Assembly (NCBI RefSeq): GCF_014863355.1
Contig: NZ_JACZEP010000001.1
Coordinates: 1,054,001-1,118,000 of the forward strand
DNA: 64,000 bases
Source: Aminobacter carboxidus
GTDB lineage: Bacteria; Pseudomonadota; Alphaproteobacteria; Rhizobiales; Rhizobiaceae
Reading direction: 5' to 3'
Part shown: in pieces, positions 2,431 through 63,507 of the stretch
Position numbering within the stretch: position 1 is the first letter of the stretch
How the letters are laid out: every line of letters starts with the position of its first letter
Made by a program: the position numbers and the translations under genes
Notes under the pieces: generated by a model
Told to the model about the DNA's origin: nothing
Seen by the model: only the letters and a program-made list of their open reading frames with translations
Database searches by the model: none

Positions 2431-2434
2431 GGCG

Positions 2435-12043: not shown

Positions 12044-12049
12044 CCTGTT

Positions 12050-12490: not shown

Positions 12491-12834
12491 GGAGCAGATA
12501 TCCTGTTGAGATGGTGAGTGTCTCGATCGTGATCGTGATCGTGATTGTTGCGATGCGCGCCATTCGACCCTCCATTCCAGGACAATAAATTAGTGCGGTC
12601 CGGATGTATGCCGAACCTATTGCTGTATGTTGCGAAGCAAGCAGATCTTGCATCGGGGCGCGGCTCATACTGTTATTTATGCACATGGTGGAATACATTA
12701 TTTGCACTGTGTGTTGCTTGACGTTCCGGAAATCCGAAACTATGTGCGGCTTGGGCAACAGCCCAACCCGTTGGCGGACGACACGAACCGCGCCGGCATT
12801 CGCCGGGTCAAAAATCCAAACTTTTGGAACTGCC
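12491..12834. other. Intergenic region with a short GATCGT tandem repeat
   Basis: 344 bp between divergent genes. It contains three perfect tandem copies of GATCGT (12525-12542). An open frame from 12604 runs into the GNAT gene, but its upstream part has no family signal and is Cys-rich and untypical. The region should hold promoters for both flanking genes. Confidence 0.5.
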
Positions 12835-13320: not shown

Positions 13321-13326
13321 CCAACG

Positions 13327-13363
13327 GCGCGGGCCGGGCGACCTCAACCACGGCCCGCGCTTT
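13327..13363 (+). terminator. Terminator hairpin between convergent GNAT and kinase genes
   Basis: A 10-bp perfect stem (GCGCGGGCCG and CGGCCCGCGC) with a 14-nt loop is followed by TTT, starting 6 bp after the GNAT stop. Its 3' arm overlaps the end of the minus-strand kinase gene. It probably ends the GNAT transcript. Confidence 0.65.
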
Positions 13364-13967: not shown

Positions 13968-14011
13968 CTCGGGGAAGATGATGACGCCAGCATTGCGCAA
14001 TGTCGAAGCGC

Positions 14012-44776: not shown

Positions 44777-44783
44777 CCCGGTT

Positions 44784-46835: not shown

Positions 46836-48807
46836 GAACCTGGAGTTCCCCTGACAACAGCTTGTTCAGCCACAGCTGAGTCGACTCCCCAACTGACTCC
46901 TTCGCGAAATCCATCAATGTGGCGTCCAAGGATGCTGCTTCTTCCTCGAATGACGATCCAGTCCACGCCGCTAAAGGAATTGTGCGCTGGATGTAGATGA
47001 GTTCGGCTCTTGCGCGCGTGAGCGGATCGAGGCTCTCCTCGAAAACGATCCCGTTGATGCAACCGGTGCAGCGCTGCACTCGGCAGATTGCACCGGGGAC
47101 GTGATCGGGGGATACGTTCTTTGGAGGAGAATCTGGCTGGAGGCAGCCCATTCCCAGCCGTGTCCGCTGCCGCCGGTCTAACAGCCGACGTTCTTGCTCC
47201 AGAGTAATCTCCCCCCGCTCCAGCTTCAGTCGGATCCGGGTTGCGTCGAGTACCCGTCCGCTCTCGATCTCGCCGAATGTTACGTCTTGGAAGGCACGGA
47301 CGAGTCCCTCACTTTGAGCGCGGTAGCGCCGACGGCGGAGGTAGTGAACGAGTGAACGGTAGTCCTCATGCTGGCCAGCAAGCCGCGCGATGAGGATGTT
47401 GTTGCCGCTGGTTATGTAGGCGTGGCCGATCCAGGCATCCCGGGCATCCCCCGTCACGAGCGCCGCCAACGCAGGGTGGTCCTCGAACAGCCCATGCTTC
47501 TGCGCTGCCAACCTAGCAATTTCGTTTAGGTGGCTTGAGTCGTCGCCATGAAGGCAGCCTACCTCGCCCACCTTGTTGACTACGTGGAACAACCATGGGC
47601 TCCGAGACATCGTCTCGAGTCGCACGATCTCGGCAGCCGTCTCTGGCATACCGTCACTCAGGTACTTGGCGCGTGCATCGGCCAATCGCTGAAGCACCGT
47701 GCGTCTGAGGGGAGCGGTGCATTTTATCATGAACTCGATGATACGGTATGGATGCCACTCGGGCTTGCGCAGACAAGGGATGAACACGTGCTTGTCCGCT
47801 CTGCCTTTGAAACTATGAAGCACGCAGAACTCGGGTTTCTGAGGATGAGGCTCCCACCAGTGTTTTTCGTCGGAGATGTCGATGCCAATGGCGGTTGATA
47901 GATTCCAACCTGTGCCAACGAGAAAGAGCCAGAAGAAAACGGCTGTGTCTTGGTAGCTGGGATGAAACCACCGAAGTTTACCTACTATTCCTTCGCTTGC
48001 GCGTTCGGTCATACCTGGGGCGAGGTACTCCGGACCATTGTGTTTTTGTGTCCGGACGTTGTTCGCCTTATTAAGACCGCGGGCGCCTGCAGCGTAGAAA
48101 TCCTCCTTCGAGGGCAAGGTATTTCGGGTCAATTTGCGGACTAGCCAAGCGTGGTTTTCTCTCTGCTCCCACGCAGCACTTGCTCGAGTTGATCGAAGTC
48201 CGCGAGGGTCTCTTCCACCATTGGCTAAGCGCTCGCCTTCCTGAAACATGGCCTTGATCGACATCGCCTCCTTTTTGAAGGCGTTGTACAGCCGCGGGTA
48301 TGCTTTCAGGTCGACATCATCCTTATGGACTATCGGATCCCGCTCGCGTGCGGGCCAGAATAACGGCGTGGAACCACTTGTCATTCTTGCCGCGTCTACC
48401 AGGCCCTTGATGTGCTTGTAGACGCTTCCGGTGAAGCCCTTCGCTTCAGCCCATTTTGCTAGGGCAATACCATGGCCATCCTTCAGATCGGCAAAGCACT
48501 TTACCGACTGATCGGGGTCGATACTGTCGAGGAAACGCAAAAGTTGACGGCAGGACGACCTGAAGTCTGCCTCGTAACTCTCTGGAGGACAAAGCGCCTG
48601 GAAAACCTCTGAGAGACCGAGCGCGAAACCGAGCCTCCCCTGAAAATCCGCTGGCCATCTGGCCTGCAACTGTGGGGGCACATCCTCCCGTTTACGTCCC
48701 TCGGCAAACTCAGTCAGATCCACCGGATAGTACGAGCCATCATGGGCCTCAACCCAAAACTGGAGTGCGACGTCACCAGCGATATTGTTGGACCGGCGCT
48801 GCTTCAC
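46813..48807 (-). CDS. Tyrosine-recombinase-like protein with degenerate catalytic site
   Basis: About 664 aa from a GTG at 48807 that has CAGGTGACC in front; the frame continues to 48894 into the IS element and that part is not original. The integrase fold is suggested by FFWLFLVGTGWNLSTAIGI, where the box I Arg is replaced (GWN), and by LAGQHEDYRSLVHYLRRRRY with His and Tyr kept; the box II H-x-x-R motif is not seen. A Cys-rich end has CRVQRCTGC. It probably is a structural or directional partner of the two intact recombinases. Confidence 0.7.
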   Translation of the reverse strand: MKQRRSNNIAGDVALQFWVEAHDGSYYPVDLTEFAEGRKREDVPPQLQARWPADFQGRLGFALGLSEVFQALCPPESYEADFRSSCRQLLRFLDSIDPDQSVKCFADLKDGHGIALAKWAEAKGFTGSVYKHIKGLVDAARMTSGSTPLFWPARERDPIVHKDDVDLKAYPRLYNAFKKEAMSIKAMFQEGERLANGGRDPRGLRSTRASAAWEQRENHAWLVRKLTRNTLPSKEDFYAAGARGLNKANNVRTQKHNGPEYLAPGMTERASEGIVGKLRWFHPSYQDTAVFFWLFLVGTGWNLSTAIGIDISDEKHWWEPHPQKPEFCVLHSFKGRADKHVFIPCLRKPEWHPYRIIEFMIKCTAPLRRTVLQRLADARAKYLSDGMPETAAEIVRLETMSRSPWLFHVVNKVGEVGCLHGDDSSHLNEIARLAAQKHGLFEDHPALAALVTGDARDAWIGHAYITSGNNILIARLAGQHEDYRSLVHYLRRRRYRAQSEGLVRAFQDVTFGEIESGRVLDATRIRLKLERGEITLEQERRLLDRRQRTRLGMGCLQPDSPPKNVSPDHVPGAICRVQRCTGCINGIVFEESLDPLTRARAELIYIQRTIPLAAWTGSSFEEEAASLDATLMDFAKESVGESTQLWLNKLLSGELQVHDTFPAY

Positions 48808-48857
48808 GCGGTCACCTGACGGTCGAGTTCCCCGGAAAGTGCTCCGATACCATTCTT

Positions 48858-49584
48858 TGGACCGCCGGAAGGTAGAGTTTCCCGACGTTTTCACGATGGC
48901 GGGCTGGCTGCGCCATCGGGATTGAGCAACGAGATCGGGACCTTATGCCCGATCGCCCCGTGTGGGCGCTCCTCGTTGTAGTATCTGCGCCAATCCTCCA
49001 TCTTTTCAGCCGCGTCCGCAAGCGTCAGGAACCAATGGGCGTTCAGACACTCCGCCCGGAAGCGGCCGTTGAAGGCTTCGATGTAGGCATTGTCAGTCGG
49101 CTTCCCCGGCCTTGAGAAGTCGAGCGTGACGCCTCTGGTGTAAGCCCACAGGTCGAGGTCCCGGGAGACGAACTCGGAGCCCTGGTCGACGCGGATCGTC
49201 TTCGGATAGCCGATCTTCGGGCAGACATGCTCCAAAGCGCGGACCACGTCTTCGGCCCGATAGCTGAACCGGGGATCGAGCACAGGCACGTAGCGGGAGA
49301 ACGTATCGACGACCGTCAGCACGCGGATCTTCTTGCCCGTAGCGAGCTGATCGTGGACGAAGTCCATCGCCCAGACGTCGTTCGGGCGGACGGCTTCTTC
49401 CAGTTGAAGTAGGTCGCCTGGCTGATCCCCGCCCGACGGCAGATCTCCGCGACCGGAATCCCGTCCGCGCCCTGCTTCAGAATGAACGCCTTCTGCGCGT
49501 CCGAAAACTTCGATGCCTTCATCGTCTTCCGCTCCTCCCAGCCAAGGGATGTTACCGCGGAAAACTCCAGTTCCGAACGGCCCA
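48858..49584 (-). mobile_element. Internally deleted IS3-family insertion sequence
   Basis: About 727 bp bounded by imperfect inverted repeats: the left end begins TGGACCGCCGGAAGGTAGAG and the right end, read inward, begins TGGGCCGTTCGGAACTGGAG, both followed by TTT(C or T)CC. IS3 elements are normally 1.2-1.5 kb; the middle is missing here (see the transposase remnant). It lies between two recombinase genes, 11 bp after the stop of one and 50 bp before the start of the next. No clear target duplication was found (CTT left, GTT right). Confidence 0.8.
48891..49522 (-). pseudogene. IS3-family transposase remnant: OrfA N-terminus fused to OrfB C-terminus
   Basis: The 49522 end encodes the start of OrfA (MKASKFSDAQKAFILKQGA up to QATYFNWKK, the HTH region). 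It then joins, in another frame, at about 49390-49398 to the OrfB catalytic domain from PNDVWAMDF onward, with VVDTFSRYVPVLD, RVDQGSEF and IEAFNGRFRAECLN, ending LLNPDGAAS. About 500 bp covering the OrfA leucine zipper, frameshift site and OrfB N-terminus are gone. The remnant cannot make a full transposase but keeps both ends, so it may move in trans. Confidence 0.85.
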
Positions 49585-49595
49585 GTTTTCGGGGT

Positions 49596-50861
49596 TCAGA
49601 GCAAAAGAAAGGTGTGCCAACCGGCCGCTGCTTCTGCCAAGCCAGAGGCCGTCACGAGCCACCGGAGATACAGATCAGTCGTTTCTTCGCTTACGTGCCC
49701 TAGCTGTTTTCGCAGCGTTTTCAGATACCAAGCGCCTCGCGCTACGACCCAGTCTGCGCCCATATCGGATAACGCCCGGCCGGCCGCCGTGGCTTCATGC
49801 TCGAGCGCATAGAGCACGTAGAAGCATGCATAGGTATGCCTGCCGAAATGCGTAGTCCATCGGGCAGGGCGTGGTTCTACCGTATGGAAGCAGTCGTACA
49901 GCCGCGCCTCAGAGACCGGCGTACCCTCGTAGTGGCGGGCATCGGAGAGAAAAACTAGCGATTTCGGCGGGCTGTTCTCACGTTTGTGCCATAGGTAGCG
50001 GAGCCTCAACCATCCACCGTCCAGCCAGTTTCGGATCTCCATTAGGAATGGGATCGCAATGGAGATCGTGCGTGGTCTACCGCCCTTCGTCACGACCAGA
50101 GTGACTGGTCCGCTGACCTGGCCTGCCAAAGATAGATTCTGCAACGTTTCCTTCGAGGGGATCTGATGCTCTTTGATCGCAACGGTCTCGAAAAGACGCG
50201 TTCCCGATTCGAGAACGAAACGCGAAGCGAGGTACTTTGGGTAACCCTTCTTCTGCCGAACGGCTTGCAGCCAGCTTGCCACCTGCTGCGGTTTTGGGAG
50301 GTAGCTGACCTTCTCAACGTCTTCTGAGTCAGATTCCGGACGCCTTCCTTGCCGCGATCGAACGAGGGCCGTGGCTTGTCCGGGGAGTTGCGCGCCCGAG
50401 GGCCTGCTGACCACCTTGTACTTGACATCGAATGCAGGCCGTAAGCCGCGGTCGGCCGCCCAGGCTAGAAATGCTGTCGACTCGTCAGCATGATGATTGG
50501 CCGTTCTCGGCTTTAGTGTCCGACCGCTAAGGGACCAGCGTCCCAGAGCCATGTCATTCTGAAAGCGGAGAACACTCTTGTAAGATACGTCCCGCCAATC
50601 GATCTTGCGATGATCACACCAATCGACAAACACGCCGAGATGCCGCGCAATGTTCTCGACCGTCTTTTCTGACGGCACTTTCTCTGCATCCCAAGGAGCA
50701 GGCCGCCCGAGCCCCGCTTCGCCCAGAGCGCGTTCGCGAAGATATCGATTGTGCGTTCGGCAATACCGCCCCGCTCGATCAAAGAGCGCGGGCACACCAG
50801 CGACTGAGTCGAAACCCAACCGACCAAGCCGCTTCGCGTCCGGATAATACAGCGTCGCCAT
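49596..50861 (-). CDS. Tyrosine recombinase, first integrase of the module (TnpA/GmtY-like)
   Basis: About 421 aa from the ATG at 50861; the longer frame to 51071 runs through an upstream small gene. Core motifs: ESGTRLFETVAI (box I Arg, about 220), THFGRHTYACFYV (His-x-x-Arg, about 335) and LGHVSEETTDLYLRWL (Tyr, about 396), so it should be catalytic. The N-terminal part has a SAM-like domain (VENIARHLGVFVDWCDH). Its stop is natural and lies 11 bp before the IS end. It leads the four-gene recombinase operon. Confidence 0.85.
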   Translation of the reverse strand: MATLYYPDAKRLGRLGFDSVAGVPALFDRAGRYCRTHNRYLRERALGEAGLGRPAPWDAEKVPSEKTVENIARHLGVFVDWCDHRKIDWRDVSYKSVLRFQNDMALGRWSLSGRTLKPRTANHHADESTAFLAWAADRGLRPAFDVKYKVVSRPSGAQLPGQATALVRSRQGRRPESDSEDVEKVSYLPKPQQVASWLQAVRQKKGYPKYLASRFVLESGTRLFETVAIKEHQIPSKETLQNLSLAGQVSGPVTLVVTKGGRPRTISIAIPFLMEIRNWLDGGWLRLRYLWHKRENSPPKSLVFLSDARHYEGTPVSEARLYDCFHTVEPRPARWTTHFGRHTYACFYVLYALEHEATAAGRALSDMGADWVVARGAWYLKTLRKQLGHVSEETTDLYLRWLVTASGLAEAAAGWHTFLLL

Positions 50862-50881
50862 CGCGATCGATGCTCTCGCCG

Positions 50882-51130
50882 CTATTCCGATCGATCCCGT
50901 CGTTTCCGCAGGTAGGTTGATGTGAGCTGGATGTCGTCGTGACGTGTCGCTCGAAAATATCCGACGATCGATCCCGTCGGACGGGGCGCAGCAACGACGT
51001 GGTGACGGCAAGCGCCACACTCTGGATTGCGTCCTTCCGCGTAGCAGCTGTCTGGGCGTTCGAGAAGGCAATGCCCTTCTGCGGCGGCGTGGAAAAGTGT
51101 CGCCAAGACGTTTTGTTTGTGAGTGACCAT
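50882..51130 (-). CDS. Small Cys-containing protein upstream of the recombinase operon
   Basis: An 82-aa frame with a near-ideal ribosome site (AGGAGGCAACCG before the ATG at 51130), ending 20 bp before the first recombinase. The middle part has CYAEGRNPECGACRHH, a possible metal-binding cluster; the end is basic (STYLRKRRDRSE). No family recognised. The strong ribosome site and position suggest a real gene, perhaps an excisionase or regulator, but the function is not known. Confidence 0.5.
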   Translation of the reverse strand: MVTHKQNVLATLFHAAAEGHCLLERPDSCYAEGRNPECGACRHHVVAAPRPTGSIVGYFRATRHDDIQLTSTYLRKRRDRSE

Positions 51131-51477: not shown

Positions 51478-53589
51478 TCAGCTTGGGAGGCGAATCAGGT
51501 CCTCGATCAGCTCCGAGCCGGGCGAAACTCCGGATACGAAAAGTCTGTCCCGAGCTCGGGTCGCGGCGACATAGAGAAGCTGCCGCTCGGTCGCGATGAC
51601 CTCGTCGAGTTCGAATTCGTCAGCGACGTCGGCCACGCGCGCTGCAAGCGGAAGAACGCCTTCGTCGCAGGCTACGACGAGCACCGCCCGAAACTCGAGA
51701 CCCTTGGCGAGGTGCATTGTGCCGACGAGCGCCGACGCCTCTGTATGCAGCTTGCCGGAGGATATTGTTCGGTACGGCAATTCCGCCGCCTCGGCGATCG
51801 CCCGGGCGCGAGGCAGCTCATCCGCCGAGCGGACGAAGATGGCGATCTGGTCGGCAGGGATGCCGTCGGCGAGCGCCATGCGGACGAAGGTCACCGCGGC
51901 CACCCGTTCCGCGTCCTCGCTGTCGGCAATGATGACCTCTGGGTCGAGGCCCTCGAAGACCGACACCGTGCCACGGCGGTCCTCCTCGAGGCCGTCGACG
52001 TCCCTTACGGTCTGCGGCAGCAGGCGGTCCGCCATCGCCCTGATCTGCTGGGAGGTTCGGTAGTTGACCTTAAGCGTTATCGAGCGGCCACGCACGTCGA
52101 TCCCAAGTCCCTTCCATGAGAAGGGCTGCTGGAAGATGCGCTGCCCAATATCGCCGGTGAAGAACAACGCGTCGGACCGGTTCGGAGCAATCGCTGAAAG
52201 GAAACGCAGTTCGGGCACGCCGAGGTCCTGGGCCTCATCGACGACGATGTGGGTGAAGGGCTTGTCGGTCTTGCCGGAGCAGGTTTCCGTCACCGCCGCG
52301 AACAACGACGCCTGGGTGAACAAGCTGCGTTGCCCAAGGACCTGCCGGACGGTCGCGAAGACCTGCCATAGCGCTTCACGCTGTTTCGCGCCTAGGCGGT
52401 TCTTGCGCCCCATTCGAGGCACATCAGCATAGGCGTCGGCGCTGTCGATGCGCCAGGCGTCAATGACGTTCTCCCACTCGGAAATCATGAACCGCAACGA
52501 GAAGCCAGTCTTCACATCGTTCGCCGCCTTCTCAACGATTCCACGGACCGTGTCGCGATCCGCGATATGCGCCTTGCGTCCCGTGGTGAGTGCGAAGAGT
52601 TCCTCGGCGATCTTCCGGAAGGAAGCGACCGTGACCCGGCTCTCGATGTCTGAGCGGCCACCCGACAGCACCGCCAGCTTGCGCTGCAGGGCCGCGGCCA
52701 GAGGATCGGAGAAGGTGGTGAGCAAGATGCGGGCGTCGGGATCGAGCCGGAGGACGCGCATCACCCGATGCAGTGCCACGACGGTCTTTCCCGTTCCCGC
52801 CGAGCCGGCCACACGCGCGGGTCCGGAATACTCTCGCTCGACGACGCCTCGCTGCAGCGGATGCAGGAACACCGCCCACTTCTCGAACGGTGCGTCGAGA
52901 GCCGTCTGCAACTCGTCCATCCCCTCCAGGACCCGGAAACGGCGCAGCGTATCCGGATGCGCCATGGGGTCCGCGACGGGAGCCGCGGCAGGCTTCAGGA
53001 TTCCGGTTGCCGCGTATTCGAGAAGTCCCTCGGCCGCCTCCTGGGGCAGGTGGGCGGCCAACGCGAAGAAGGTTTCCTCGGTGGCTGTTGCGACGTCGTT
53101 CAGCCAGTCCGGGGGGACGCCAATGGAAAGCAATTCGGCTTGGGCAAGGCGATCGAAGATCAGCGGCTGAGGGGCAGCGCCCTGTGGCGCGGAAGACGTA
53201 TCGAACGGCAGGTCCGGCTGCGTGAACTTGGTCGTGGCGGGTGGTGCGATTTCCTCCACCCGCTCGCGCACCTCGACGATCTGGACCGCACCCGTCGCCG
53301 GATGCGTTTCGATCCGCCGTCGCTCCGCCCAGGCATAGGCGTCGTCATGGTGGTCGACATAGGCAAGCATCAGGCTTGCGCCTGTCTTGTGGACGATGAT
53401 GCGGATGTCTCGGGACACCCGCACCGACCAGAAGTTCGGATCCTTGGACTTGTCGATGCGATGGAACTGTAGCCCGGGCTGGTCTGGATTCGCCTGCAGG
53501 TCGAACGCCGTAAGCTTCGCCTGCTTCTGCTCGTCATTGGCGAGCTTGGCGAGGGCGGCGGTGAAGCTGTCGGCAAGTATGGTCGGCAT
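51478..53589 (-). CDS. UvrD/Rep-type helicase with N-terminal RelE-like domain
   Basis: A 703-aa protein. Residues about 20-90 resemble a RelE/ParE toxin fold (FHRIDKSKDPNFWSVRVSRD, then RIIVHKTGASLMLAYVDHHD). From about residue 250 there is an SF1A helicase: Walker A AGSAGTGKT (about 267), VVDEAQDLGVPELRFL, GDIGQRIFQQPFSWKGLGI, VNYRTSQQIR, TMHLAKGLEFRAVLVV and YVAATRARDRLFVSG (motif VI). No nuclease domain is seen. It is the last gene of the six-gene operon, 8 bp after its neighbour. It may unwind DNA in restriction or defence; the toxin-like domain role is unknown. Confidence 0.85.
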   Translation of the reverse strand: MPTILADSFTAALAKLANDEQKQAKLTAFDLQANPDQPGLQFHRIDKSKDPNFWSVRVSRDIRIIVHKTGASLMLAYVDHHDDAYAWAERRRIETHPATGAVQIVEVRERVEEIAPPATTKFTQPDLPFDTSSAPQGAAPQPLIFDRLAQAELLSIGVPPDWLNDVATATEETFFALAAHLPQEAAEGLLEYAATGILKPAAAPVADPMAHPDTLRRFRVLEGMDELQTALDAPFEKWAVFLHPLQRGVVEREYSGPARVAGSAGTGKTVVALHRVMRVLRLDPDARILLTTFSDPLAAALQRKLAVLSGGRSDIESRVTVASFRKIAEELFALTTGRKAHIADRDTVRGIVEKAANDVKTGFSLRFMISEWENVIDAWRIDSADAYADVPRMGRKNRLGAKQREALWQVFATVRQVLGQRSLFTQASLFAAVTETCSGKTDKPFTHIVVDEAQDLGVPELRFLSAIAPNRSDALFFTGDIGQRIFQQPFSWKGLGIDVRGRSITLKVNYRTSQQIRAMADRLLPQTVRDVDGLEEDRRGTVSVFEGLDPEVIIADSEDAERVAAVTFVRMALADGIPADQIAIFVRSADELPRARAIAEAAELPYRTISSGKLHTEASALVGTMHLAKGLEFRAVLVVACDEGVLPLAARVADVADEFELDEVIATERQLLYVAATRARDRLFVSGVSPGSELIEDLIRLPS

Positions 53590-53597
53590 CGGAGCGA

Positions 53598-54578
53598 CTA
53601 CTTTTCGTCTTTTGGCGATCGAGACAGGCGGTCCCGACGATGCTCAACGACAAGTTTCGCGAGCATGTCCTCGCGCTTCACTTGATTTGCAGATTTGGCC
53701 TTCGGTTTAGATGCGCGTTCCTTTGGCGCCTTGATTTTAGCGGCTTTTGCCTCTCGTGGGAGGACAGCAGGCGCTTTAGGTTTCGGTCGACGTAGATCAC
53801 GTCGCCGGATCAAGGTCGTTGCGACCCCCAAAGCATCGCGCACCAGCTCAGGCTTGGGAGGATGCGTGCGGAGGGGCCTCAAGACGTGATCACCAGTCGA
53901 TACGATAGTGCGAAAGCGATCGCTTTCATACCAGGTTACTCGGTAAGAGCGCGGCTCAAGTCTATCGGTATGAAATGCACTAACGCTTAAAAACGAGCCA
54001 CTCACAACGTCGCCGACGACAATGATGTCGTCAGCGCAGGTGACAGCAAAGTGGACGATCGGCTCGTCAGCCATTTCGATCAACCGTCCGGTTATAAAGA
54101 GCTCCCACCCCTTTCGATCGACGGCCACGATTTCAATCATCTGCCAATCAATCGCGTACCCGGACTGGTGGTAGCGGCCGCCATCGTAGATCCCAATGAA
54201 CGTGGCTGCCTCTGCCAGTTCGAGACGAACGCCCCGCAAACGCGGCTGAGGACGTTCCGATGTAGGGCTTACCGCCAATCTCGGATTATCTGTGCATCCG
54301 TGTTTCGGCCATGGCGGTCCCAAGTCGTCAAAGAACACGCGGCTACCCCGGCCGTTCTGGTAGTAAAATACCGTCTCCTTACAGACCGGGCATTTTGCAT
54401 TGGGGTTTACGAAGCAAGACGAATAGCCTCGGCTGGCTCGTTCGTCACGCAAGATGCGCTCAGCGTCGCGGATCTGCATCGATCTGCGCAACTCGGAGCG
54501 ATCGATCCGGACGTTGCCCCATGTGCTGGAACACCAACCGCACCCGCAACTCGGATAGTGGTTGTGACCACGCCCCAT
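53598..54578 (-). CDS. Cys-rich, probably zinc-binding protein in the defence operon
   Basis: A 326-aa protein from the ATG at 54578, coupled to the methyltransferase stop (TGAGATG); a TTG at 54590 is rejected. N-terminal Cys clusters include HNHYPSCGCGWC and NAKCPVCKETVFYYQNG, followed by GSRVFFDDLGPPWPKHGC. This looks like zinc ribbons. The middle is beta-rich and the last 70 residues are Lys/Arg-rich (KPKAPAVLPREAKAAKIKAP), suggesting nucleic-acid binding. I recall similar proteins beside restriction genes in rhizobia, but no function is assigned. Confidence 0.75.
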   Translation of the reverse strand: MGRGHNHYPSCGCGWCSSTWGNVRIDRSELRRSMQIRDAERILRDERASRGYSSCFVNPNAKCPVCKETVFYYQNGRGSRVFFDDLGPPWPKHGCTDNPRLAVSPTSERPQPRLRGVRLELAEAATFIGIYDGGRYHQSGYAIDWQMIEIVAVDRKGWELFITGRLIEMADEPIVHFAVTCADDIIVVGDVVSGSFLSVSAFHTDRLEPRSYRVTWYESDRFRTIVSTGDHVLRPLRTHPPKPELVRDALGVATTLIRRRDLRRPKPKAPAVLPREAKAAKIKAPKERASKPKAKSANQVKREDMLAKLVVEHRRDRLSRSPKDEK

Positions 54579-54579
54579 C

Positions 54580-57555
54580 TCAAACCCCAAACACCTTCAG
54601 CACTTCATCCCCGAAGTGGTTGATCACCTTCACAGCAATCCTGCCCGTGCTCGGGCGCGGGAAGGGCCGTGACGTGTCCGAATACAGCGTCGACCAGGCG
54701 TCCTCATCGATCTCGGCCTTCAGCGCAGTCTTCAGCGACTTGTAGGGGTCGTTGGCGCCGAGGAAATAGGCGTGGCGGACGAAGAAGCTTTCTTCGTTGT
54801 AGTCGGTGTCGATGAACCAGGCGGCGATGCCCTTCACGTCGTCAGAGCGGATCTCGCCTGTTGACGGGTCGAAGATGTCGACGCCGTTGACCTTGACCTG
54901 CAACTGCCCGTCCGCCGTCTCGATCAGATCGACATCCGGTTCGCCGAATACGACGAAGAGGTTGCCCTTGCCCGTGTTCTTGAGGTCCTCGGCCATGTGC
55001 AGGTCGGGGTTCATGCGGGCCTTCAGGACGGCCAGCGGCCCGAGGCGGTTGAGGTCGCTCGCCTGGGCCTCGAAATTGAAGGCGCAGGCGATCAACGCGT
55101 CGAAGCGGGCGTCGGAGGCCTCGCGGGCGGCGGCGGTGATGTCGCTGCGGGTGAGCGTCCCGAACTCGGGACCAATAAGGATTCCCGCGCGCTTCTCGCG
55201 GCCGTCGCCGTCATTGTAGCGGCCCTCCGCCGCGAGGAACTTGCCCGGCCAGGGTTCGACCGAGTTGAAGCGGATGGTGTCACGCTTTTCCTGCTGGTGG
55301 ACGCCTGCCGTGCGCAGATGCTCCAGAACCATCTGGCCGAAATCGATCTCCGGCACGTTGGCGGGAGCTGGCTGCAGGCCGCCTTCACCGGCCCTGATCT
55401 CGGCAGCGAGGGTGTCGTCGCGGGCGGTGACGACACGGTGCGGCGACAGGCTCTCCACGGTGAACGGTCCGGCGACGCGCACCTTGCTCTTGTCCTCATA
55501 GGGACGGTCGTAGAGCATCTCGACATCGGCAGCCTTGGCGATCGAAGCGTCGATCTCCTTCTGCCGCGTGATGCGGCCTTCCCACCAGCCTTTGTGCAAC
55601 TCACGAACACGAGCGCTGGCCAGTCCGGCCTTCGCGGCACCGTCCTTCGTCTCGAGCCACAGGTCGAGGTCGCGCGGTATCTCCCATTCCGCGAAGGCGG
55701 TCTGCAGATTCTCGTTCAGTGCGCTGCGCATCGGCTCCAACACTGCTTGCCAACGCTCCCAGATCACGTCGATCTCGGCATTATTGGCGATGGATTTCAG
55801 CGTGATGTGCGGCGCGCGCTCGTAGACGAATCCCTGCCGGACATCGCCGGATGTCGATCCATGCGGCTGTATCTTGCCGGACACCTTCTGCTCCTGCGCG
55901 CGGCCCTCCGGGCTGTCGGCCAGGTGATAGAAGGGATAGCGGGCAGACATCAGACGGGTCCGGGCGAGCGCAAGCGCCACGCGCGACGTGTCGATGGTAA
56001 TCCAACGCCGCCCCCATTGCTCAGCGACCGTCGCCGTCGTGCCGGAGCCGCAGGTCGGGTCAAGCACAAGGTCTCCTGGATCGGTGGTCATGAGAATGCA
56101 GCGCTCGATGACCTTGGTTCCAGTTTGCACGACATACAACTTATCGTAAGCAAATCCCGAATGTCCGGTATCCGGCCAGAAATTAGAGTACGGAGAAACA
56201 GGATAGTCATTCAGGAACCGAACGTAATTCAGTGTGTTCTCTGTTCCATAAATCCTGTCAGAACGAGAGGCACGGCGGAGGCCGTCTGGATATCTAGGTT
56301 TCCAGTGGCTGCTTTTCGTGGGGTGGTATGTTCTGCCTTGAAAGTCGAACGGTGTCGGTTCCTTTGAAGGACCCTGGCCGCACAGATCGCTGATCCGGAA
56401 TATCCGAGCCGAGGTAGGGAGTGCATCCAAGTTGGCGAGTTCATTTACAGAAAGCCGTCTTCTATTCCCAACCGCGAACTCAGCGCTCTTATAGGCGCTG
56501 GACTCGTCGTCCGCGCCTTTCTTTTCAAAGTAGAGAGGCCTGAATTTCTTCTTCGTATCGTCCTTGCAATACCAAATCACATAATCACCAACACGACTAA
56601 GGCCGCTTGTAGCAAGCCCGCCGGTCGTCACGAAATAGATGGTGCTCTGATAGTTTTTTTCCCCAAACACCTCGTCCATCAGCGCCCGGACGCGATGCAC
56701 GTTCTCGTCGCCGATCTGCACAAAGACGGAGCCGCTTTCAGTGAGCAGTTCACGCGCGACCATCAACCTGTCGCGCAGATAGGTGAGGTAGGAATGGATG
56801 CCGTCCTTCCAGGTGTCGCGGAACGCCTTCACCTGTTCCGGCTCGCGTGACACGTCGGTCGCCTTGCCGTCCTTCACGTCACGGGACTGTGTCGAGACCT
56901 GCCAGTTCGAGTTGAACTTGATACCGTAGGGCGGGTCGAAATAGATGCTCTGCACCTTGCCGCGCATCGCCTCCCGTTCCGCGAGGCTCGCCATCACCTG
57001 CAGGCTGTCGCCGAGGATGAAGCGGTTCGTCCAGTGCTGGGCGTGCTGGTAGAACTCGGCCCGCGCCTCCGGATCTGTCAGCCCGTTGAAATCGGCGAAC
57101 AGGTCCGGCGCGTCGGTCTCGCTTGCGCGCTTGGCACTGGTGCTGCGCTTCAACTCGTCGATGATCGCCTTGGGATGCACCTTCTCCTGCACGTAGATCG
57201 GCGGCGCGTTGACGACGAGGTCGGACCAGTCCTGGGTGTCCTTGCCCTTCCAGACAAGCTGCGCGTCGCCGATCTCGATCTCGCCCGTCTCGGCGAGTTT
57301 CCGCATCTGCTCCTTCGTGATCGTGATCTTCACGCCGTTCCAGACGATCTGCGGATCGATATCTCCATCGCGATCCCGCGTCTCGCCGTTGGCCAGTGGC
57401 CGCGGGCGGTGCAGGGACATCGAGCGCTCGCTCTCGCCCAGCATCTCCGCCTGCTGCTCGAACAACGACGCCATCTCGGCCGTCGGATTGTTGATCCGCG
57501 TGGCCGCGTCGTGCGTGAGGGCGTCGATCGCCTTCTGGATGGGCGTTTTGGCCAT
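54580..57555 (-). CDS. Large site-specific DNA methyltransferase (beta type, Mod-like)
   Basis: A 991-aa protein. Motif IV DPPYG lies at about residues 206-210 (VQSIYFDPPYGIKFNS) and motif I DPTCGSGTT at about 501, the order of beta-class N6-adenine or N4-cytosine methyltransferases. The N-terminal 190 residues and the C-terminal 450 residues have no catalytic motif and may be target recognition or complex-forming parts. It resembles Mod subunits of type III systems but is much longer than the usual about 650 aa. Its start shares a base with the stop of the nuclease gene upstream (TGATG). Confidence 0.88.
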   Translation of the reverse strand: MAKTPIQKAIDALTHDAATRINNPTAEMASLFEQQAEMLGESERSMSLHRPRPLANGETRDRDGDIDPQIVWNGVKITITKEQMRKLAETGEIEIGDAQLVWKGKDTQDWSDLVVNAPPIYVQEKVHPKAIIDELKRSTSAKRASETDAPDLFADFNGLTDPEARAEFYQHAQHWTNRFILGDSLQVMASLAEREAMRGKVQSIYFDPPYGIKFNSNWQVSTQSRDVKDGKATDVSREPEQVKAFRDTWKDGIHSYLTYLRDRLMVARELLTESGSVFVQIGDENVHRVRALMDEVFGEKNYQSTIYFVTTGGLATSGLSRVGDYVIWYCKDDTKKKFRPLYFEKKGADDESSAYKSAEFAVGNRRRLSVNELANLDALPTSARIFRISDLCGQGPSKEPTPFDFQGRTYHPTKSSHWKPRYPDGLRRASRSDRIYGTENTLNYVRFLNDYPVSPYSNFWPDTGHSGFAYDKLYVVQTGTKVIERCILMTTDPGDLVLDPTCGSGTTATVAEQWGRRWITIDTSRVALALARTRLMSARYPFYHLADSPEGRAQEQKVSGKIQPHGSTSGDVRQGFVYERAPHITLKSIANNAEIDVIWERWQAVLEPMRSALNENLQTAFAEWEIPRDLDLWLETKDGAAKAGLASARVRELHKGWWEGRITRQKEIDASIAKAADVEMLYDRPYEDKSKVRVAGPFTVESLSPHRVVTARDDTLAAEIRAGEGGLQPAPANVPEIDFGQMVLEHLRTAGVHQQEKRDTIRFNSVEPWPGKFLAAEGRYNDGDGREKRAGILIGPEFGTLTRSDITAAAREASDARFDALIACAFNFEAQASDLNRLGPLAVLKARMNPDLHMAEDLKNTGKGNLFVVFGEPDVDLIETADGQLQVKVNGVDIFDPSTGEIRSDDVKGIAAWFIDTDYNEESFFVRHAYFLGANDPYKSLKTALKAEIDEDAWSTLYSDTSRPFPRPSTGRIAVKVINHFGDEVLKVFGV

Positions 57556-58559
57556 CAGGATTTCTCGTCTTTTGCGTCAGAGGGATGGGCAAGGAAGGCA
57601 TAGCGATCGCGGAGGTAGTCCGCCCAGCCGTCGCCGTCCGGCACATCGGCGATTAGCGGCGCGAACAGGGATTCGGTCGATCGGCTGACGAAGTCGTCCG
57701 GGTTGACCAGAAGCGAGCGGTAGACCGTGAAGGCGTTCTCGCCGAGCTCAAGCTTCCGCAGCGCAGGCGAGGTGACGCGGGTCAGCCGCCTGTTCCCGGC
57801 GGGGGCGATGTGGAGCACGCGGACGCGCTCGGTGCCGTCTTCCTTCTCCCCCTGCATGCGAGAGGCCAGCATCTGCTGCCGGAAGAGCTGATAGAACGGT
57901 TCCCAGAACAGGTCGGTGAGCTTCAGGCGGGTATCGCTGCGGACGGGACCGAACGGCGCGAAGGCTATGCCCTGATAGCGGCGAAGGCGCTCGGCCTCGC
58001 GCTTCTGCTCGGGCGGAGTTCCATAGGACTCCGTGTATTTCCACTCGACCAGCAAGGTTTCGATCCGTCCGGCCTGGCGGAATCGCAGGATCGCGTCGGC
58101 GCTGGTGACGTTGGCGCCGCGTTTCGGCACGCCGGTCCGGGGCCATTCGTTGAGATAGTCCTTGCGGCCGATCCATTCGAAGCCGACGAACCAGGATTTG
58201 CCGTCGGGCCCCGTCTCGACCTCCAGCATGTCGGGAAGCGGGCCGCCAATCGCCTGCTGGACGAGCTTGGACAGTACATCCGGGCGCGTGGCCAGTGGCA
58301 TCAGGAAGTTCAGGCAGCAAACCTGCGAGGACAGCCCGTGGGCAGCATGCTGGTGCCAGGCGATGTTGTTGTCGTCGAAGTAGCGCGCGGCAATTTCCCG
58401 GATTTCGGGATTGAGATTCGACAGCCGGTTGCCTGGGGGGAGGCGGTAGTCGCACCCGTCAAATCCACACTCGTCCGGCAAGGTCGCGCGGAAGAACACC
58501 GACTGGCGCGCACGCTCCTGTTCGACGAAATCGACATTTCCTGTTTCGGCACGGGTCAT
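57555..58559 (-). CDS. PD-(D/E)XK-like restriction endonuclease, PGN_0703-type
   Basis: A 334-aa soluble protein. YRLPPGNRLSNLNPEIRE, NNIAWHQHAAHGLSSQVCC and LNFLMPLA match the start of the PGN_0703-type putative restriction endonuclease family as I recall it. The nuclease core is likely SADAILRFRQ (Asp about residue 152) with LLVEWKYTES (E-x-K about 170-173). It sits directly upstream of the methyltransferase gene and shares a base with it, so it is a plausible cutting subunit. Confidence 0.78.
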   Translation of the reverse strand: MTRAETGNVDFVEQERARQSVFFRATLPDECGFDGCDYRLPPGNRLSNLNPEIREIAARYFDDNNIAWHQHAAHGLSSQVCCLNFLMPLATRPDVLSKLVQQAIGGPLPDMLEVETGPDGKSWFVGFEWIGRKDYLNEWPRTGVPKRGANVTSADAILRFRQAGRIETLLVEWKYTESYGTPPEQKREAERLRRYQGIAFAPFGPVRSDTRLKLTDLFWEPFYQLFRQQMLASRMQGEKEDGTERVRVLHIAPAGNRRLTRVTSPALRKLELGENAFTVYRSLLVNPDDFVSRSTESLFAPLIADVPDGDGWADYLRDRYAFLAHPSDAKDEKS

Positions 58560-58598
58560 TTGGAGAGACCTCCGCCGAGCGTCCCAACCTGTAAAGGC

Positions 58599-60467
58599 TC
58601 ATGCGGCATCGGCAGTCTCGATCTCATCCATCAGTGCGTCGTCGGGGGCTGTCGTTTCCTCAAAGGCGGCCGCATCGACGCTGGCCTTGCCCATGGCCCT
58701 TCCTGCCAAGCCGGCGAGGAGAGTAACTCGCGCATCAAAGAAGGCCTCGAAATCGTCCGCTCGCAAATGTTCGACCGGGATGAGGTGTGTCTTCAGGATT
58801 GCGTCGAGTTCGGACGCGCCAATCTTATGATCCTGCTCGATCCGCTTCAGATAAACCGAGGGTGCGTCCCCTCGTACGATATAGCGATTGGTTGCCGACG
58901 AAAGCGGAGTCTTGTTCACGATGGAATCATACTGTTCGACCACTTTGTTATTGTTACGACACCAAGACTGCGGGAAAATGTGGTGCACGTCGACCGCCTC
59001 GCTCCAGAGCGTCATCAGGTCGAAAGCCTTGCCAGATACGAAGTCTCGGCATCCTTCCCGCATCAAAAGAGCGTGGAAGCCCTTGTAGGCAGCTGATTGG
59101 CGACGACGCAGGCGCGTCAGCTTGTTGGAGACGAACGTGACGTCTTCGAAAATGGATGGGCTGGCCTGGCTTTTCTCGAGCCAGGCAATCAGCTGGGGAA
59201 CGTCGCGTGCAATCTTTGTTTCCGTGCCCCCGCCGTAGTGTTCTCCCAACACTCCCGCCCAGAACCACTTCGACAGATTGGCCCGCACCGTCGCATTGTT
59301 AGTGGATGTGGCTGGCAGGGTGGCGAAGAGCGCCGCCAGGGCAACCACTTGCGGCGGATAGGGCAGATCGCGCTGATATACGATGTTCTGTTCTGCAAGG
59401 AACTTGCCAGCCTCGATAAATCCAGCTTCTACCCTGTCGGCATAACCCAGATAGCCAGCAAGCGGCAGAGCAAGAAGAGCATCCCTTTTGCAGGTAATTT
59501 GCGGCAGCTGCGTCCCAGGAATCGGGTGCTCCTCGCGCTGCCGACGAATTTCCATCGTATGAAGCAGCGTGCAAGCCTGCAGGAAGTCCGTGCTTGCGAG
59601 CTTTGCGAAGACCCCGTCCGGCTTGGTCTGGACGCGGATGCGTCCCAGGCGTCCGTGCTGGGATTTCGTACCCCACCAGTCTTCGCGCAAATCAAAGCCT
59701 TCGCCGGTGCCTGCAAAGATGGCGGTCACCAGCTCGAAAGCGTCCAGTTTGACCCCTCCGACGTTCACCTTTTCGAAGATCGTGCAAACGGCTTCTCTTC
59801 CATTGTCCTTGGTCAGCTTGATGATGGGCATCTCGTAGCGCTGGATGCGGTCAAGGATTTGCCGATCGAAGGCCTTGTCCATCTCATAGATGTCGACGCC
59901 CTTCGCCTTCCAGTGATCGCGCCAGCCATAAACCCAATCCTTCTCGTCGAAGCACCGATTTAGCGGAAACAGATGCTGCTCGTATTCCAGCGCCGATGAA
60001 GACACGTCGATGTCCACGTCGCGAGCGAAAGCCTTCATGCGGATACGAGTGGCCGGAACCGTTTCGATCGCCTCCTCGAAATCGCCGGTGGCCAGAGCTT
60101 CTTGGATGTTCAGATAAAAGTATCGTTCAACGATATCCGATTGTGAATTTTTCACCTTTGCCGGGCGATCGGAGTATATCGACTGAAAGAGTGAAGTCAT
60201 GCGCTGCTGACCATCCAGTAGCAATGCTTCCGGCCCTGGGTTTTCAGTCGCCGTGCCTTCGACAGGCCGAAACTTGAAATTTACCTGCCCACCGCGCTCC
60301 AGCGTCAGCAGCGCGCCGACCGGATAGCCTTTAGCTATGCTTGCGAGAAGGCTCACGACGGCATCTTCGTTCCAGACATATCCCCGCTGAAAATCCGGCA
60401 GCTGAAGTTTGCCGTCACACACCTGTTCCAGGAGTGTCTTGAGCGTCTGCTTGGTGCTGTCAAACAT
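58599..60467 (-). CDS. DUF262 protein with C-terminal HNH (GmrSD-like)
   Basis: A 622-aa protein. The DUF262 domain has LPDFQRGYVWNEDAVVSLL (residues about 23-41) and LLDGQQRMTSLFQSIYSD with the DGQQR ATPase/GTPase-type motif (about 86-90). The C-terminal part has a DUF1524-type HNH motif DVHHIFPQSW (about 491-500) and the later SIVNKTPLSSATNRYI. GmrSD and relatives cut modified DNA using NTP. Here it is inside a methyltransferase operon, between the helicase and the PD-(D/E)XK gene. It overlaps the helicase gene by 8 bp. Confidence 0.88.
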   Translation of the reverse strand: MFDSTKQTLKTLLEQVCDGKLQLPDFQRGYVWNEDAVVSLLASIAKGYPVGALLTLERGGQVNFKFRPVEGTATENPGPEALLLDGQQRMTSLFQSIYSDRPAKVKNSQSDIVERYFYLNIQEALATGDFEEAIETVPATRIRMKAFARDVDIDVSSSALEYEQHLFPLNRCFDEKDWVYGWRDHWKAKGVDIYEMDKAFDRQILDRIQRYEMPIIKLTKDNGREAVCTIFEKVNVGGVKLDAFELVTAIFAGTGEGFDLREDWWGTKSQHGRLGRIRVQTKPDGVFAKLASTDFLQACTLLHTMEIRRQREEHPIPGTQLPQITCKRDALLALPLAGYLGYADRVEAGFIEAGKFLAEQNIVYQRDLPYPPQVVALAALFATLPATSTNNATVRANLSKWFWAGVLGEHYGGGTETKIARDVPQLIAWLEKSQASPSIFEDVTFVSNKLTRLRRRQSAAYKGFHALLMREGCRDFVSGKAFDLMTLWSEAVDVHHIFPQSWCRNNNKVVEQYDSIVNKTPLSSATNRYIVRGDAPSVYLKRIEQDHKIGASELDAILKTHLIPVEHLRADDFEAFFDARVTLLAGLAGRAMGKASVDAAAFEETTAPDDALMDEIETADAA

Positions 60468-63400
60468 GAAGCCGTCCCCCAGCTCTATCCGCCAAACCCT
60501 TCATCAGCATTCCCCATTCTTCTTGAATCGCGAACGCATCCCGGAATTCGGCAAACTCCCAGCGTCCGAAGGTCCTCAAATTGTTGACACCCGGCACCCA
60601 GAGCGTCTCCATGGTCTGGGCCTTGAGCTGCGCGTCGAGGCCACGGAACCCCTTCACCTCCACCACCAGGTTGAGAGGGTCGTCCGTTCCGTGTCCGTCA
60701 TCTACCTGAACAATGAAATCTGGAAGATATCGGCGCGTCACCGAGCCGGCGAGATAAGGGACCTCGAAGCCGAGAGCCTGGTTCTTTACATAGGCAATGG
60801 TGGCGGGATGGCTCTCGACGACCCGGGCGAGCTCCGCCTCCCAATCGGAATCGAGCACCACCGCGTTGACGTGGCACTTGTCCGGTGCCGTCCATTGCAC
60901 GGGCTTTGTCGTGCTGAATGCGACGTGGTTGGTGGAACCGCGCGGATTGTAGGGGTCGAGCATCGCCTTGACGATGGGCGCGCCGTCCGCACTCGCCTCG
61001 CGCACGATGCCCGCATAGATGAGGTTGGCTGCCTTGTCGGCGATCTCGGCGTAGGTCAGCATGCCGATCCTGGTGCCGCCGACAGTCTTCAGGTGATCCC
61101 TGATCCAACGGCGTGTGATGGGCTGGATGAGGTTATAGAGGTGATAGGGAGGGTCCTGGTCGCCGTCGCGGAAGTAGCGCTCCACGAGGCGCTTGGTCAG
61201 ATGTACCGCTACGGAGTTCGGACGCATTTCGTCGAGCGCATCCGGCGAGATGTCGTGCCCTTCGCCCACCAGCCCCTCAAGCCGCGTCTCACAGGGGCCA
61301 ACGAGTTCCGGCGTCAGGGTCAGGGTCGAGTCCGCGTTGAACGTAGCGGAGATGCGGTCCGGCGGAAGCTCGGTGCGATAGCCGGCCACGCGCGGGAAGC
61401 GGATCGATAGTCGCTCGCGCTCGCGGATGGCGGCAACGCGGGTCACGGGCTTCGGCGGCTTCTTCGTGACGGCCTGGGGCTCGGTGGCGAAATCGAACGG
61501 AATGCCGAGGATGTCGGCATACTCGGTCTCGAAGAGTTGGGTCTCCGGATTCAATTCGTAGGATTGACGGCGCAGGCCGCGGCCGATCACCTGCTCGCAC
61601 AGCAGCTGAGTTCCGAAAGCGCGTACACCGAGGATGTGCGTGACGGTGTTGGCGTCCCATCCTTCGGTAAGCATGGACACGGACACCACGCACCGGATCT
61701 GCTCGCCCAGGCGGCCCTTCTGCCCGACCGTGTTCATGACCTCTCGAAGGAGTTCGCTGTCGGAGATGTTTCCGGCGGCGGCGCCTTCGCGTTCCTGCTT
61801 CTCGCGGCGGAACTGCTCGATTTCACCCGCGGCCATTTCGCGGAATGTGGAGTCCAGCGCCTCGCCGGATTCGATCTGCTGGGAATCGATCAGCAGCGTG
61901 TTCATGCGGGGCAAAGGCTCCCCGGTGTTTTTGTCGAAGTTGCCGAATAGCCCAAGATGACCGTGATGGATGGTCTGCATCTGGCCTTCGCGCTCGCGCT
62001 GCCAGCCGGACACCCACTCATAGACGAGCTTCGAACTCGCCGTGTTGTTGCAGACGACGATGAAGACGGGCGGTACCGAAATGCCGGCGCGCCGCCATTC
62101 CTCGAATTCTTTCTCGTAATGGCTGTAGAGGGAGATAAGCGCCGTCTGGAGCTGCGCCGGAATCGACAGGGGGTCGAGCTCGCCGGACTTGGAGGCGCCC
62201 TTCTTGGGCATCTGTTTTCCGATGTGATCCCAAAGGTTCCGATAGACGGGTGTCTCGGCATTGACCGCGTTGTCCGCCACCGGAACACGCGGCAGCTTGA
62301 CGATGCCGCATTCGATGGCGTCGACGAGACTGAAATCCGAAACGACCCAGGGAAACAGCGTGCCTTCCTCGTAGCCGGAACCGCGCAGGAAGAAGGGCGT
62401 GGCGGAAAGATCGTAGACCGCGCGCAGGCCAACCTTGCGCTTCAGCGCCTCGAGACCCGAAATCCAGAGACGGGCGGCCTCATTGTTCTTTTTCGCTTCT
62501 TCCTTGTCCTCGCCCTTCGCCTCGGCTTCGTCGTCGGTGCCGGGCCGCTCGCGGTAGCAGTGGTGCGCCTCGTCGTTGATGACGACGATGTTCTTCAAGG
62601 GAAGAAGCTCGCCGCAGGCGCGGGCCAGCATTTCGCCTTCGCTCTCCTGCTTCTCGATCGGCTGCCCCGTGCGGCCCTGCATGAGCCGTTCGCCGACGGG
62701 ATTGAGGTCGTGCGCCTTGCGGCGCTGGAAGGCGTGGTAGTTGGTGATCACGATCTTGGCCTTGCCGAGATCATTCATCAGTTCGGCGGGGACCAGTTCA
62801 CGAGTGCGGTAGTAGTTGTCGGTGTCGGATGGGTTGAGGACACGGAGCCGATCCTTGATCGTGATACCCGGCGCCACCAGCAGGAAGCCTCTGGAAAAGA
62901 GCGACGAATTCGGCTGCCTGGCGGCATTAATGGACTGCCACGCGATCAGCATTGCCATGACCGTCGTCTTGCCAGCGCCCGTCGCCAGCTTCAACGCAAG
63001 CCGGAACAGATCCGGATTGGCGTCTCGGTTTGCCTCCTCGAGATGACGGAAGATATGCGCATATTGCTTGCGCCCGCGCGCTACCTCGGCCAGCCAGATC
63101 GCCGTCTCGACTGCCTCGATCTGGCAGAAAAAGGGTCGCTGATTGGAGAATTCGTGGTGTCGCCAATGCTGCAAAAGGCGCTGCGTGACGGGCGTAACGC
63201 CCCAGTCGTTGGGATTCGGCAGGGCGCGCCAGGATTCGATGTGTCCGCGGATTTCGTTGATGATCGGCGTCGGGTTATAGCCGCTTTCACCGCCCTCAGG
63301 AGCATCGAAGGCGAGGGACGCCTGGCTTCGGCCCGCGCCGGATTTCGACCGTCGTGCCTTGGGCACCGGCGTAATGTACTTCGACCGTCGCCGCCCTTCG

Positions 63401-63507
63401 ATCGGGGGATGCTCCAGTGGCTGGCCGTCATCACCGAGCGCATGATGCCGCGTCGGCGGCAGATAGGGCGAATTGAGGATAGGTTCCGCATAGAATGGCT
63501 TGGTCAT
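60460..63507 (-). CDS. SF2 helicase with C-terminal nuclease motif (type III Res-like)
   Basis: About 1015 aa from the ATG at 63507 (GGGGGGA in front); an ATG at 63537 is an alternative. Helicase marks: LKLATGAGKTTVMAML (Walker A, about residue 179), VVINDEAHHCYRE (about 312), YDLSATPFFLRGSG and QVIGRGLRR. At the C-terminus RRYLPDFIVQVDDG with LVVEVKGFRG (about 950) is the PD-(D/E)XK-type site seen in Res subunits of type III enzymes. It is the first gene of the six-gene operon, so its promoter lies in 63508-63740. Confidence 0.9.
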   Translation of the reverse strand: MTKPFYAEPILNSPYLPPTRHHALGDDGQPLEHPPIEGRRRSKYITPVPKARRSKSGAGRSQASLAFDAPEGGESGYNPTPIINEIRGHIESWRALPNPNDWGVTPVTQRLLQHWRHHEFSNQRPFFCQIEAVETAIWLAEVARGRKQYAHIFRHLEEANRDANPDLFRLALKLATGAGKTTVMAMLIAWQSINAARQPNSSLFSRGFLLVAPGITIKDRLRVLNPSDTDNYYRTRELVPAELMNDLGKAKIVITNYHAFQRRKAHDLNPVGERLMQGRTGQPIEKQESEGEMLARACGELLPLKNIVVINDEAHHCYRERPGTDDEAEAKGEDKEEAKKNNEAARLWISGLEALKRKVGLRAVYDLSATPFFLRGSGYEEGTLFPWVVSDFSLVDAIECGIVKLPRVPVADNAVNAETPVYRNLWDHIGKQMPKKGASKSGELDPLSIPAQLQTALISLYSHYEKEFEEWRRAGISVPPVFIVVCNNTASSKLVYEWVSGWQREREGQMQTIHHGHLGLFGNFDKNTGEPLPRMNTLLIDSQQIESGEALDSTFREMAAGEIEQFRREKQEREGAAAGNISDSELLREVMNTVGQKGRLGEQIRCVVSVSMLTEGWDANTVTHILGVRAFGTQLLCEQVIGRGLRRQSYELNPETQLFETEYADILGIPFDFATEPQAVTKKPPKPVTRVAAIRERERLSIRFPRVAGYRTELPPDRISATFNADSTLTLTPELVGPCETRLEGLVGEGHDISPDALDEMRPNSVAVHLTKRLVERYFRDGDQDPPYHLYNLIQPITRRWIRDHLKTVGGTRIGMLTYAEIADKAANLIYAGIVREASADGAPIVKAMLDPYNPRGSTNHVAFSTTKPVQWTAPDKCHVNAVVLDSDWEAELARVVESHPATIAYVKNQALGFEVPYLAGSVTRRYLPDFIVQVDDGHGTDDPLNLVVEVKGFRGLDAQLKAQTMETLWVPGVNNLRTFGRWEFAEFRDAFAIQEEWGMLMKGLADRAGGRLHV

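Follow-up and report, generated by a model that had tools for sequence, protein, structure and literature searches.

The question raised by this locus is whether six closely packed genes of Aminobacter carboxidus form one dedicated defence system or a smaller core into which other genes have been set. The genes lie on the minus strand at positions 51478-63507 of the 64,000-nucleotide stretch of contig NZ_JACZEP010000001.1 that we analysed as a whole (the window). A first-pass annotation had read them as a dedicated six-gene system in which a methyltransferase, two helicases and several nucleases act together. From our analysis, the locus is probably a type III-like restriction-modification (R-M) core, made of Res and Mod, with an ArmD-like RelE/UvrD protein as third subunit and two intergenic slots for cargo genes. 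The architecture, the co-occurrence of the core genes, the exchange of cargo and one cargo fusion were directly observed.

Layout of the operon and evidence for its proteins

All six open reading frames (ORFs) are intact and co-directional, with the positions, overlaps and small gaps that the first-pass annotation had described (lengths in amino acids, aa):

60460-63507, minus strand: Res, SF2 helicase with a C-terminal PD-(D/E)XK nuclease, BPTD_3080 family, 1015 aa; core gene 1 (NF046055, ResIII Pfam match, motifs)
58599-60467, minus strand: DUF262 (GmrSD_N) plus HNH-like protein, 622 aa; slot A cargo (PF03235, DGQQR, DVHHIFP)
57555-58559, minus strand: REase-ARP, predicted PD-(D/E)XK nuclease, 334 aa; slot A cargo (PF22558, PF20796, conserved residues)
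54580-57555, minus strand: Mod, beta-class N6/N4 DNA methyltransferase, 991 aa; core gene 2 (PADLOC, Pfam, profile-to-structure matches)
53598-54578, minus strand: zinc-rich protein, about 326 aa; slot B cargo (CxCxxC, CxxC, homologues)
51478-53589, minus strand: RelE-like/UvrD (ArmD-like) fusion, 703 aa; core gene 3 (UvrD Pfam match, GajB models, identity to the L142 protein)

Res (63507-60460) overlaps the DUF262 gene (60467-58599) by 8 bp, 39 bp separate the latter from the ARP gene (58559-57555), and this shares 1 bp with Mod (57555-54580; TGATG). For the zinc-rich gene, the ATG at 54578 (TGAGATG) is the most likely start, a correction of the earlier one, because the protein of locus L024, its closest homologue, starts at the same residue; the gene ends at 53598, 8 bp before RelE-UvrD (53589-51478). 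A scan of the locus for promoters and terminators gave no excess over shuffled sequence. We take the six-gene arrangement to be beyond chance because its core recurs across the phylum, as described below.

The family assignments largely bear out what had been annotated. Res scored 1269 bits against NF046055 (cut-off 800) and 39 bits, above cut-off, against Pfam ResIII, and it carries the motifs GAGKT, DEAH, SAT and QVIGRGLR followed by a C-terminal PD..EVKG, as expected of an SF2 helicase with an EVKG nuclease motif; no relatives were found among solved structures. The 991-aa beta methyltransferase, Mod, reached 110 bits against Pfam N6_N4_Mtase, with DPPY preceding DPTCGSG, and 1200 bits against PADLOC MTase_III (PDLC03632) over residues 97-990, while its profile matched the type III Mod structures 6k0w and 4zcf (EcoP15I). 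The RelE-UvrD protein contains GSAGTGKT and DEAQD and matched Pfam UvrD_C (66 bits) and PADLOC GajB models (up to 89 bits). For the protein annotated as DUF262 plus HNH, the first part was recovered (99 bits against PF03235, GmrSD_N; DGQQR at residues 85-89), and the second consists of a DVHHIFP motif, the HNH_4 match falling under the cut-off; its PADLOC matches, PDC-M55C (112 bits) and HEC-05 (81 bits), have their best stretches within residues 1-262. The zinc-rich protein shows CxCxxC and CxxC motifs and belongs to no family in Pfam, NCBIfam or PADLOC. Homologues were found at L007, L024, L126 and L170, each directly before RelE-UvrD as the final gene. Modelled from two sequences, the zinc-rich protein gave an unusable structure (pLDDT 36), which was dropped.

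ARP matched PF22558 (REase-ARP) with 175 bits and PF20796 with 75 bits. Its motif residues are D155 and E172-W-K174; across 23 ARP sequences neither D155 nor E172 varies and K174 hardly does, and the structure model has a pLDDT of 91. Pfam and the conserved residues together place ARP among predicted PD-(D/E)XK nucleases, in line with the annotation. The Pfam name "ARP" may have its source in a rapidly evolving REase of ARG-associated systems (PMC9503650). A separate WHxHxxHxLSSQ stretch (window 58323-58358, ARP residues 68-79) is strongly conserved in REase-ARP proteins and distant in sequence from D155 and E172-x-K174. As judged from these families, a type III-like Mod/Res pair is combined with a GmrSD-like protein and other nucleases; the composite defence logic proposed for the locus is supported too.

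A three-gene core and two cargo slots

The RelE-UvrD profile was searched in evenly drawn genome samples at a threshold of E 1e-100, giving matches in 21 of 297 order genomes and 25 of 398 phylum genomes. Gene contexts were taken for every order match and for 18 phylum loci, five low-scoring phylum-sample genomes (G654, G583, G750, G689, G183) being left out. Twenty-seven of the 39 loci, the window included, qualified as strong (at least 850 bits and at least 5 kb upstream). Upstream of RelE-UvrD on the same strand, Mod was present in 27/27 and Res in 26/27. Outside this set, L141 has Mod and Res with a frame-broken RelE-UvrD, L086, L090 and L142 lack both, and the remaining loci are cut by contig ends. 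Minimal operons with both gaps below 100 bp accounted for 5 of the 26 loci measured, and therefore Res-Mod-RelE/UvrD can stand alone. The same six genes in the same order were found in no other locus examined, and the DUF262, ARP and zinc-rich genes vary; the co-occurrence that the first-pass annotation had proposed to count thus proved rare for the set of six and common for the core of three, and the idea of a dedicated six-gene system was not supported.

Counting from the Res side gave 17 Res loci, spread over 16 of the 289 class genomes; 16 of the loci have Mod and 10 have RelE-UvrD, which in two of these ten lies on the opposite strand. Because only 10/17 carry RelE-UvrD, this protein is firmly tied to a single Mod/Res branch and not to the family at large. 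Res-Mod without RelE-UvrD also occurs in cyanobacterial and Rhodococcus plasmid loci, and plasmid relatives of Mod are flanked by Res and RelE-UvrD with different genes in between. Some further contexts were seen along the way. Genome G488 holds two such Mod/Res loci (L144 and L081), one alone having RelE-UvrD in the stretch examined. L016 (Methylomagnum, 11841-14349) is a Res-Mod operon with an annotated CBASS phospholipase and nucleotidyltransferase directly after Mod. On a Sphingobium plasmid (L019, 91-20360) the pair stands in a larger, different setting, annotated as WYL, RecB-like nuclease, DNA repair exonuclease, AAA ATPase, Mod, BPTD_3080 Res and DUF3320. The stretch around the RelE-UvrD of L086 holds large ORFs of unknown kind.

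Extra genes sit in two places, the Res-Mod interval (slot A) and the Mod-RelE-UvrD interval (slot B), with 0 to 5 extra ORFs; gap A measures between -130 and 3995 bp, gap B between -4 and 3696 bp. A mechanical rule (at least 80 aa, same strand) defined the slot ORFs, so that some may be spurious and some were missed (e.g. the ARP of L044). The cargo amounts to 106 ORFs from 49 loci, or 59 sequence groups, with two loci taken twice in these counts (L042/L130 and L044/L083) and with DUF262 and ARP collapsed into one group owing to the fusion in L050. Seven of the 49 (L011, L013, L015, L016, L023, L039, L048) have no measurable RelE-UvrD, and L014 has no measurable slots. A Pfam scan of 39 slot proteins, one of them from the additional locus L144, gave 12 above the curated cut-off, 5 weak and 22 without any match. 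Those above the cut-off are:

GmrSD: L024, L080
PDDEXK_4: L026
HNH_2: L043, L044, L125
SNase: L081
NYN: L131
AAA_15: L136
AAA_16 and Bro-N: L128
NOV_C: L009

The slots are a source of candidate new effectors because 22/39 of their proteins are without any Pfam match. Likenesses to PADLOC HEC models, which we take to be Hma-embedded candidates, were found in slot B: Pfam-negative proteins of L129 and L131 scored above 600 bits against HEC-07, and the L080 protein scored 155 bits against HEC-06. Cargo changes while Mod remains close: L007 and L043 share 81% identity in Mod and both have DUF262 in slot A, whereas the next gene and the entire slot B differ (for the split Mod genes of L009, L026 and L076, identities refer to the longest piece).

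To follow one cassette, ARP was scanned in 84,980 species genomes, which yielded 27 loci: 10 with Res and Mod, 10 with neither in the stretch, and 7 on short or cut contigs. Among named genomes, Mesorhizobium has the closest relatives (86% and 82%); searches elsewhere returned one plasmid record and, among the 289 class genomes, the window's own alone. DUF262 and ARP occur jointly in slot A of L025, L027, L039 and L043, and in L050 they are a single 953-aa ORF, a fusion that indicates a physical partnership. The pair was also found in L034 (Methylobacterium sp. Leaf117) with no Res or Mod in the stretch, and another set, c28-c29-ARP, has an embedded copy (L026) and a free one (L031). At L029 and L030 a metallophosphatase gene and weak AAA_23/27 genes follow ARP, and these may be Mre11- and Rad50-like.

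On the tree of 28 ARP proteins, the embedded/free label needs 5 changes across 21 rows (L031, with a broken ARP ORF, was omitted and the 7 rows from short or cut contigs were uncounted), and the starred branches enforce at least 3 changes of the embedded label. The label is also more clustered than in shuffles, of which 6/500 were equally low. The label changes and the clustering together show repeated but restricted movement of cassettes into or out of the slot, gain and loss being indistinguishable on the tree.

That clustering is one of several observations that weigh against a modular core with exchangeable cargo. Among single proteins, the DUF262 protein had no GmrSD_C/DUF1524 match in the Pfam scan; Foldseek with the ARP model returned nothing at E < 0.001, EcoO109I, BamHI, HincII and FokI being among its six best, weak matches; and, of the RelE-UvrD fusion annotated earlier, the UvrD part stood and the RelE part was weakly visible, the N-terminus matching the toxin RelE3 profile at E = 0.09. 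Among loci, L084 has Mod and RelE-UvrD without Res; 7 of the 17 Res loci are without RelE-UvrD (2 of them at contig ends); L167 and L168 have RelE-UvrD on the opposite strand and Mod ahead of Res; L039 and L048 carry Res, ARP and Mod with no RelE-UvrD inside the flank; and L086 has a 717-bit RelE-UvrD (2147-4225) with no Mod or Res in 14 kb upstream. As for the cassette, a 142-aa ORF separates DUF262 from ARP in L027, DUF262 lies in slot A without ARP in L007, L081, L139 and L172, and ARP occurs without DUF262 in L006, L024, L026, L042, L044 and L048. Since each occurs without the other, the pair is not obligate, and finding them apart slightly lowered our confidence in the reading.

Known systems, proposed working and rival explanations

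Membership of the operon in BREX, Hma or ARMADA was considered and rejected (general background in PMC11980606, PMC12707154, PMC10952713 and PMC5512222). The closest likeness of the core is to type III R-M of the EcoP15I kind: Mod is beta-class, with DPPY before DPxxGxG and matches to PADLOC MTase_III and to type III Mod structures, and Res is an SF2 protein with a C-terminal PD-(D/E)XK domain. It differs in that Res precedes Mod, Mod has 991 aa, a RelE-UvrD subunit and cargo are added, and the window Res is far from the PADLOC REase_III models (best 30 bits across 44 residues).

That no named system was known for this set, as had been annotated, needs one qualification, since its RelE-UvrD has a published relative, ArmD of ARMADA Type II. 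The ArmD-type fusion is described as RelE-like in PMC12458937, where losing any of four ARMADA genes, or the ArmD K266A change, abolishes defence. Our comparator was the protein of L142, to which the window protein is 32% identical (E 2e-101) over nearly full length, RelE part included. The L142 operon encodes an SNF2 helicase, an Eco57I-type methylase, a DEAD helicase with an MrfA zinc-binding domain (DEAD-MZB) and RelE-UvrD, the order published for ARMADA Type II (PMC12458937). L142 (477 bits) and L090 (398 bits) are lower-scoring RelE-UvrD matches, both in operons with very large proteins. The operon shares an ArmD-like subunit with ARMADA Type II and differs from it in the families of Mod and Res; no YprA-like helicase, PglX-like methylase or BrxHII-like helicase was among the listed family matches of the six window proteins, and the terms Mod and type III restriction are absent from the main text of PMC12458937.

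The cargo finds its nearest parallels around BREX. BrxU, a GmrSD-family protein found beside BREX, has DUF262 with DGQQR and an HNH-like motif and a methylation-based partner, covers modified-DNA phages missed by BREX and is sufficient alone (PMC8565348). Compared with BrxU as described there, the window DUF262 protein has no recognised DUF1524, has a separate (once fused) PD-(D/E)XK partner, and lies in the Res-Mod interval. Numerous auxiliary nucleases inside or beside BREX operons are reported in a 2026 survey (PMC12839542); the idea of HNH, PD-(D/E)XK, PIN and ATPase effectors in or beside a methylation-based core operon is alike in both cases, whereas the core here is type III-like R-M with an ArmD-like subunit, and the word UvrD is absent from the main text of that survey. 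Neither PglZ nor BrxC of BREX was among the listed PADLOC, Pfam and NCBIfam matches of the six proteins (for Mod and RelE-UvrD, the best 25 PADLOC matches). Hma, in turn, has an m5C methylase, HmaB (PMC8565338), while the window Mod is of the N6_N4_Mtase type.

We infer every biochemical step of the working proposed for the locus. Mod would methylate a host motif, a chemistry suggested by its family, and Res together with Mod would translocate along unmethylated DNA and cut it. RelE-UvrD would act downstream, on broken or replicating phage DNA and possibly by cutting RNA too, and by analogy with ArmD in ARMADA it would be an essential helper. The DUF262 and PD-(D/E)XK proteins would form a second, type IV-like layer of nucleases directed at modified phage DNA that resists the core; the analogy with BrxU beside BREX suggests that DUF262/ARP would serve against modified phages and Res/Mod against unmodified ones. 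In a bolder and more tentative version, which we consider possible but rather doubtful, such operons would be a widespread open R-M platform in which a type III-like Res/Mod took over ArmD, cassettes are swapped between species at two fixed docking slots, REase-ARP is a common slot A partner, and effectors rely on the core to target or license them.

Four other explanations were weighed. The tight spacing with overlaps, which suggests translational coupling, and the joint recurrence of DUF262 and ARP, once fused, would suit a single obligate machine, with every nuclease and the two helicases joined in one Mod-guided complex. This is very improbable, given that no other locus examined has the same six, that 5/26 measured loci hold Res-Mod-RelE/UvrD only, and that close Mods go with different cargo. 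It is likewise unlikely that an ordinary type III-like R-M system lies here amid bystander defence genes, with slots filled by random build-up in a defence island. The surroundings are island-like, with recombinase-like genes downstream (44267-51071) and divergent Lamassu-like LmuA/LmuB upstream, and the cargo families are found elsewhere too, but the counted cargo is co-directional within two defined gaps, that of the window overlaps core genes or lies no more than 39 bp from them, RelE-UvrD goes with Mod in 27/27, and both c28-c29-ARP (L026, L031) and DUF262-ARP (L034) occur embedded as well as free.

Cargo might also consist of guards that stay silent until a phage inhibits Res/Mod and then kill the cell, following a PrrC- or PARIS-like logic. 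The variety of cargo (RNase-like NYN, ATPases, nucleases) fits guards better than it fits one substrate class and resembles the BREX backup effectors of PMC12839542. This is a live rival of low probability: no antitoxin is evident, and the window cassette has a GmrSD-type protein whose relative BrxU suffices alone against modified-DNA phages (PMC8565348). UvrD-type helicases and nucleases also serve in repair, but an operon for DNA repair or recombination instead of defence was rejected, with next to no probability left to it, on the beta-class Mod with its type III-like Res, the GmrSD and REase-ARP cargo, the patchy distribution (RelE-UvrD in 21/297 order genomes) and the defence neighbour.

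Novelty and genomic surroundings

Most of the protein families here are already known. By titles and abstracts, none of the open-licence papers listed in our literature searches treats a Mod/Res/RelE-UvrD operon, and searches for the names REase-ARP and BPTD_3080 returned no paper; as far as this literature was searched, what is new is the grouping of Mod, Res and RelE-UvrD into one core, the connection of that core to ARMADA, the pair of cargo slots, and the cassette of DUF262 with ARP. As a common subunit, RelE-UvrD would tie type III-like R-M to ARMADA, and the minimal three-gene operons permit a clean test of its role. Inspecting the genes between Res, Mod and RelE-UvrD offers a rule for nuclease discovery, and the swappable cassettes suggest a way in which bacteria fit an established defence with new weapons.

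Upstream of the operon and divergent from it lies a Lamassu-like two-gene pair (from 63741 to past the end of the window; 1742-4560 in L004), with a Cap4-nuclease LmuA (165 bits) and LmuB (624 bits) by PADLOC and Pfam. Just downstream, at 44267-51071, three large ORFs (683, 693 and 491 aa) resemble tyrosine recombinases, accompanied by a 169-aa ORF and, by eye, an IS3-type integrase fragment. The 693-aa ORF had no Pfam match and the 491- and 169-aa ORFs no PADLOC match, and the 683-aa ORF matched Pfam Phage_integrase; these genes are possibly a mobile element that carries the island.

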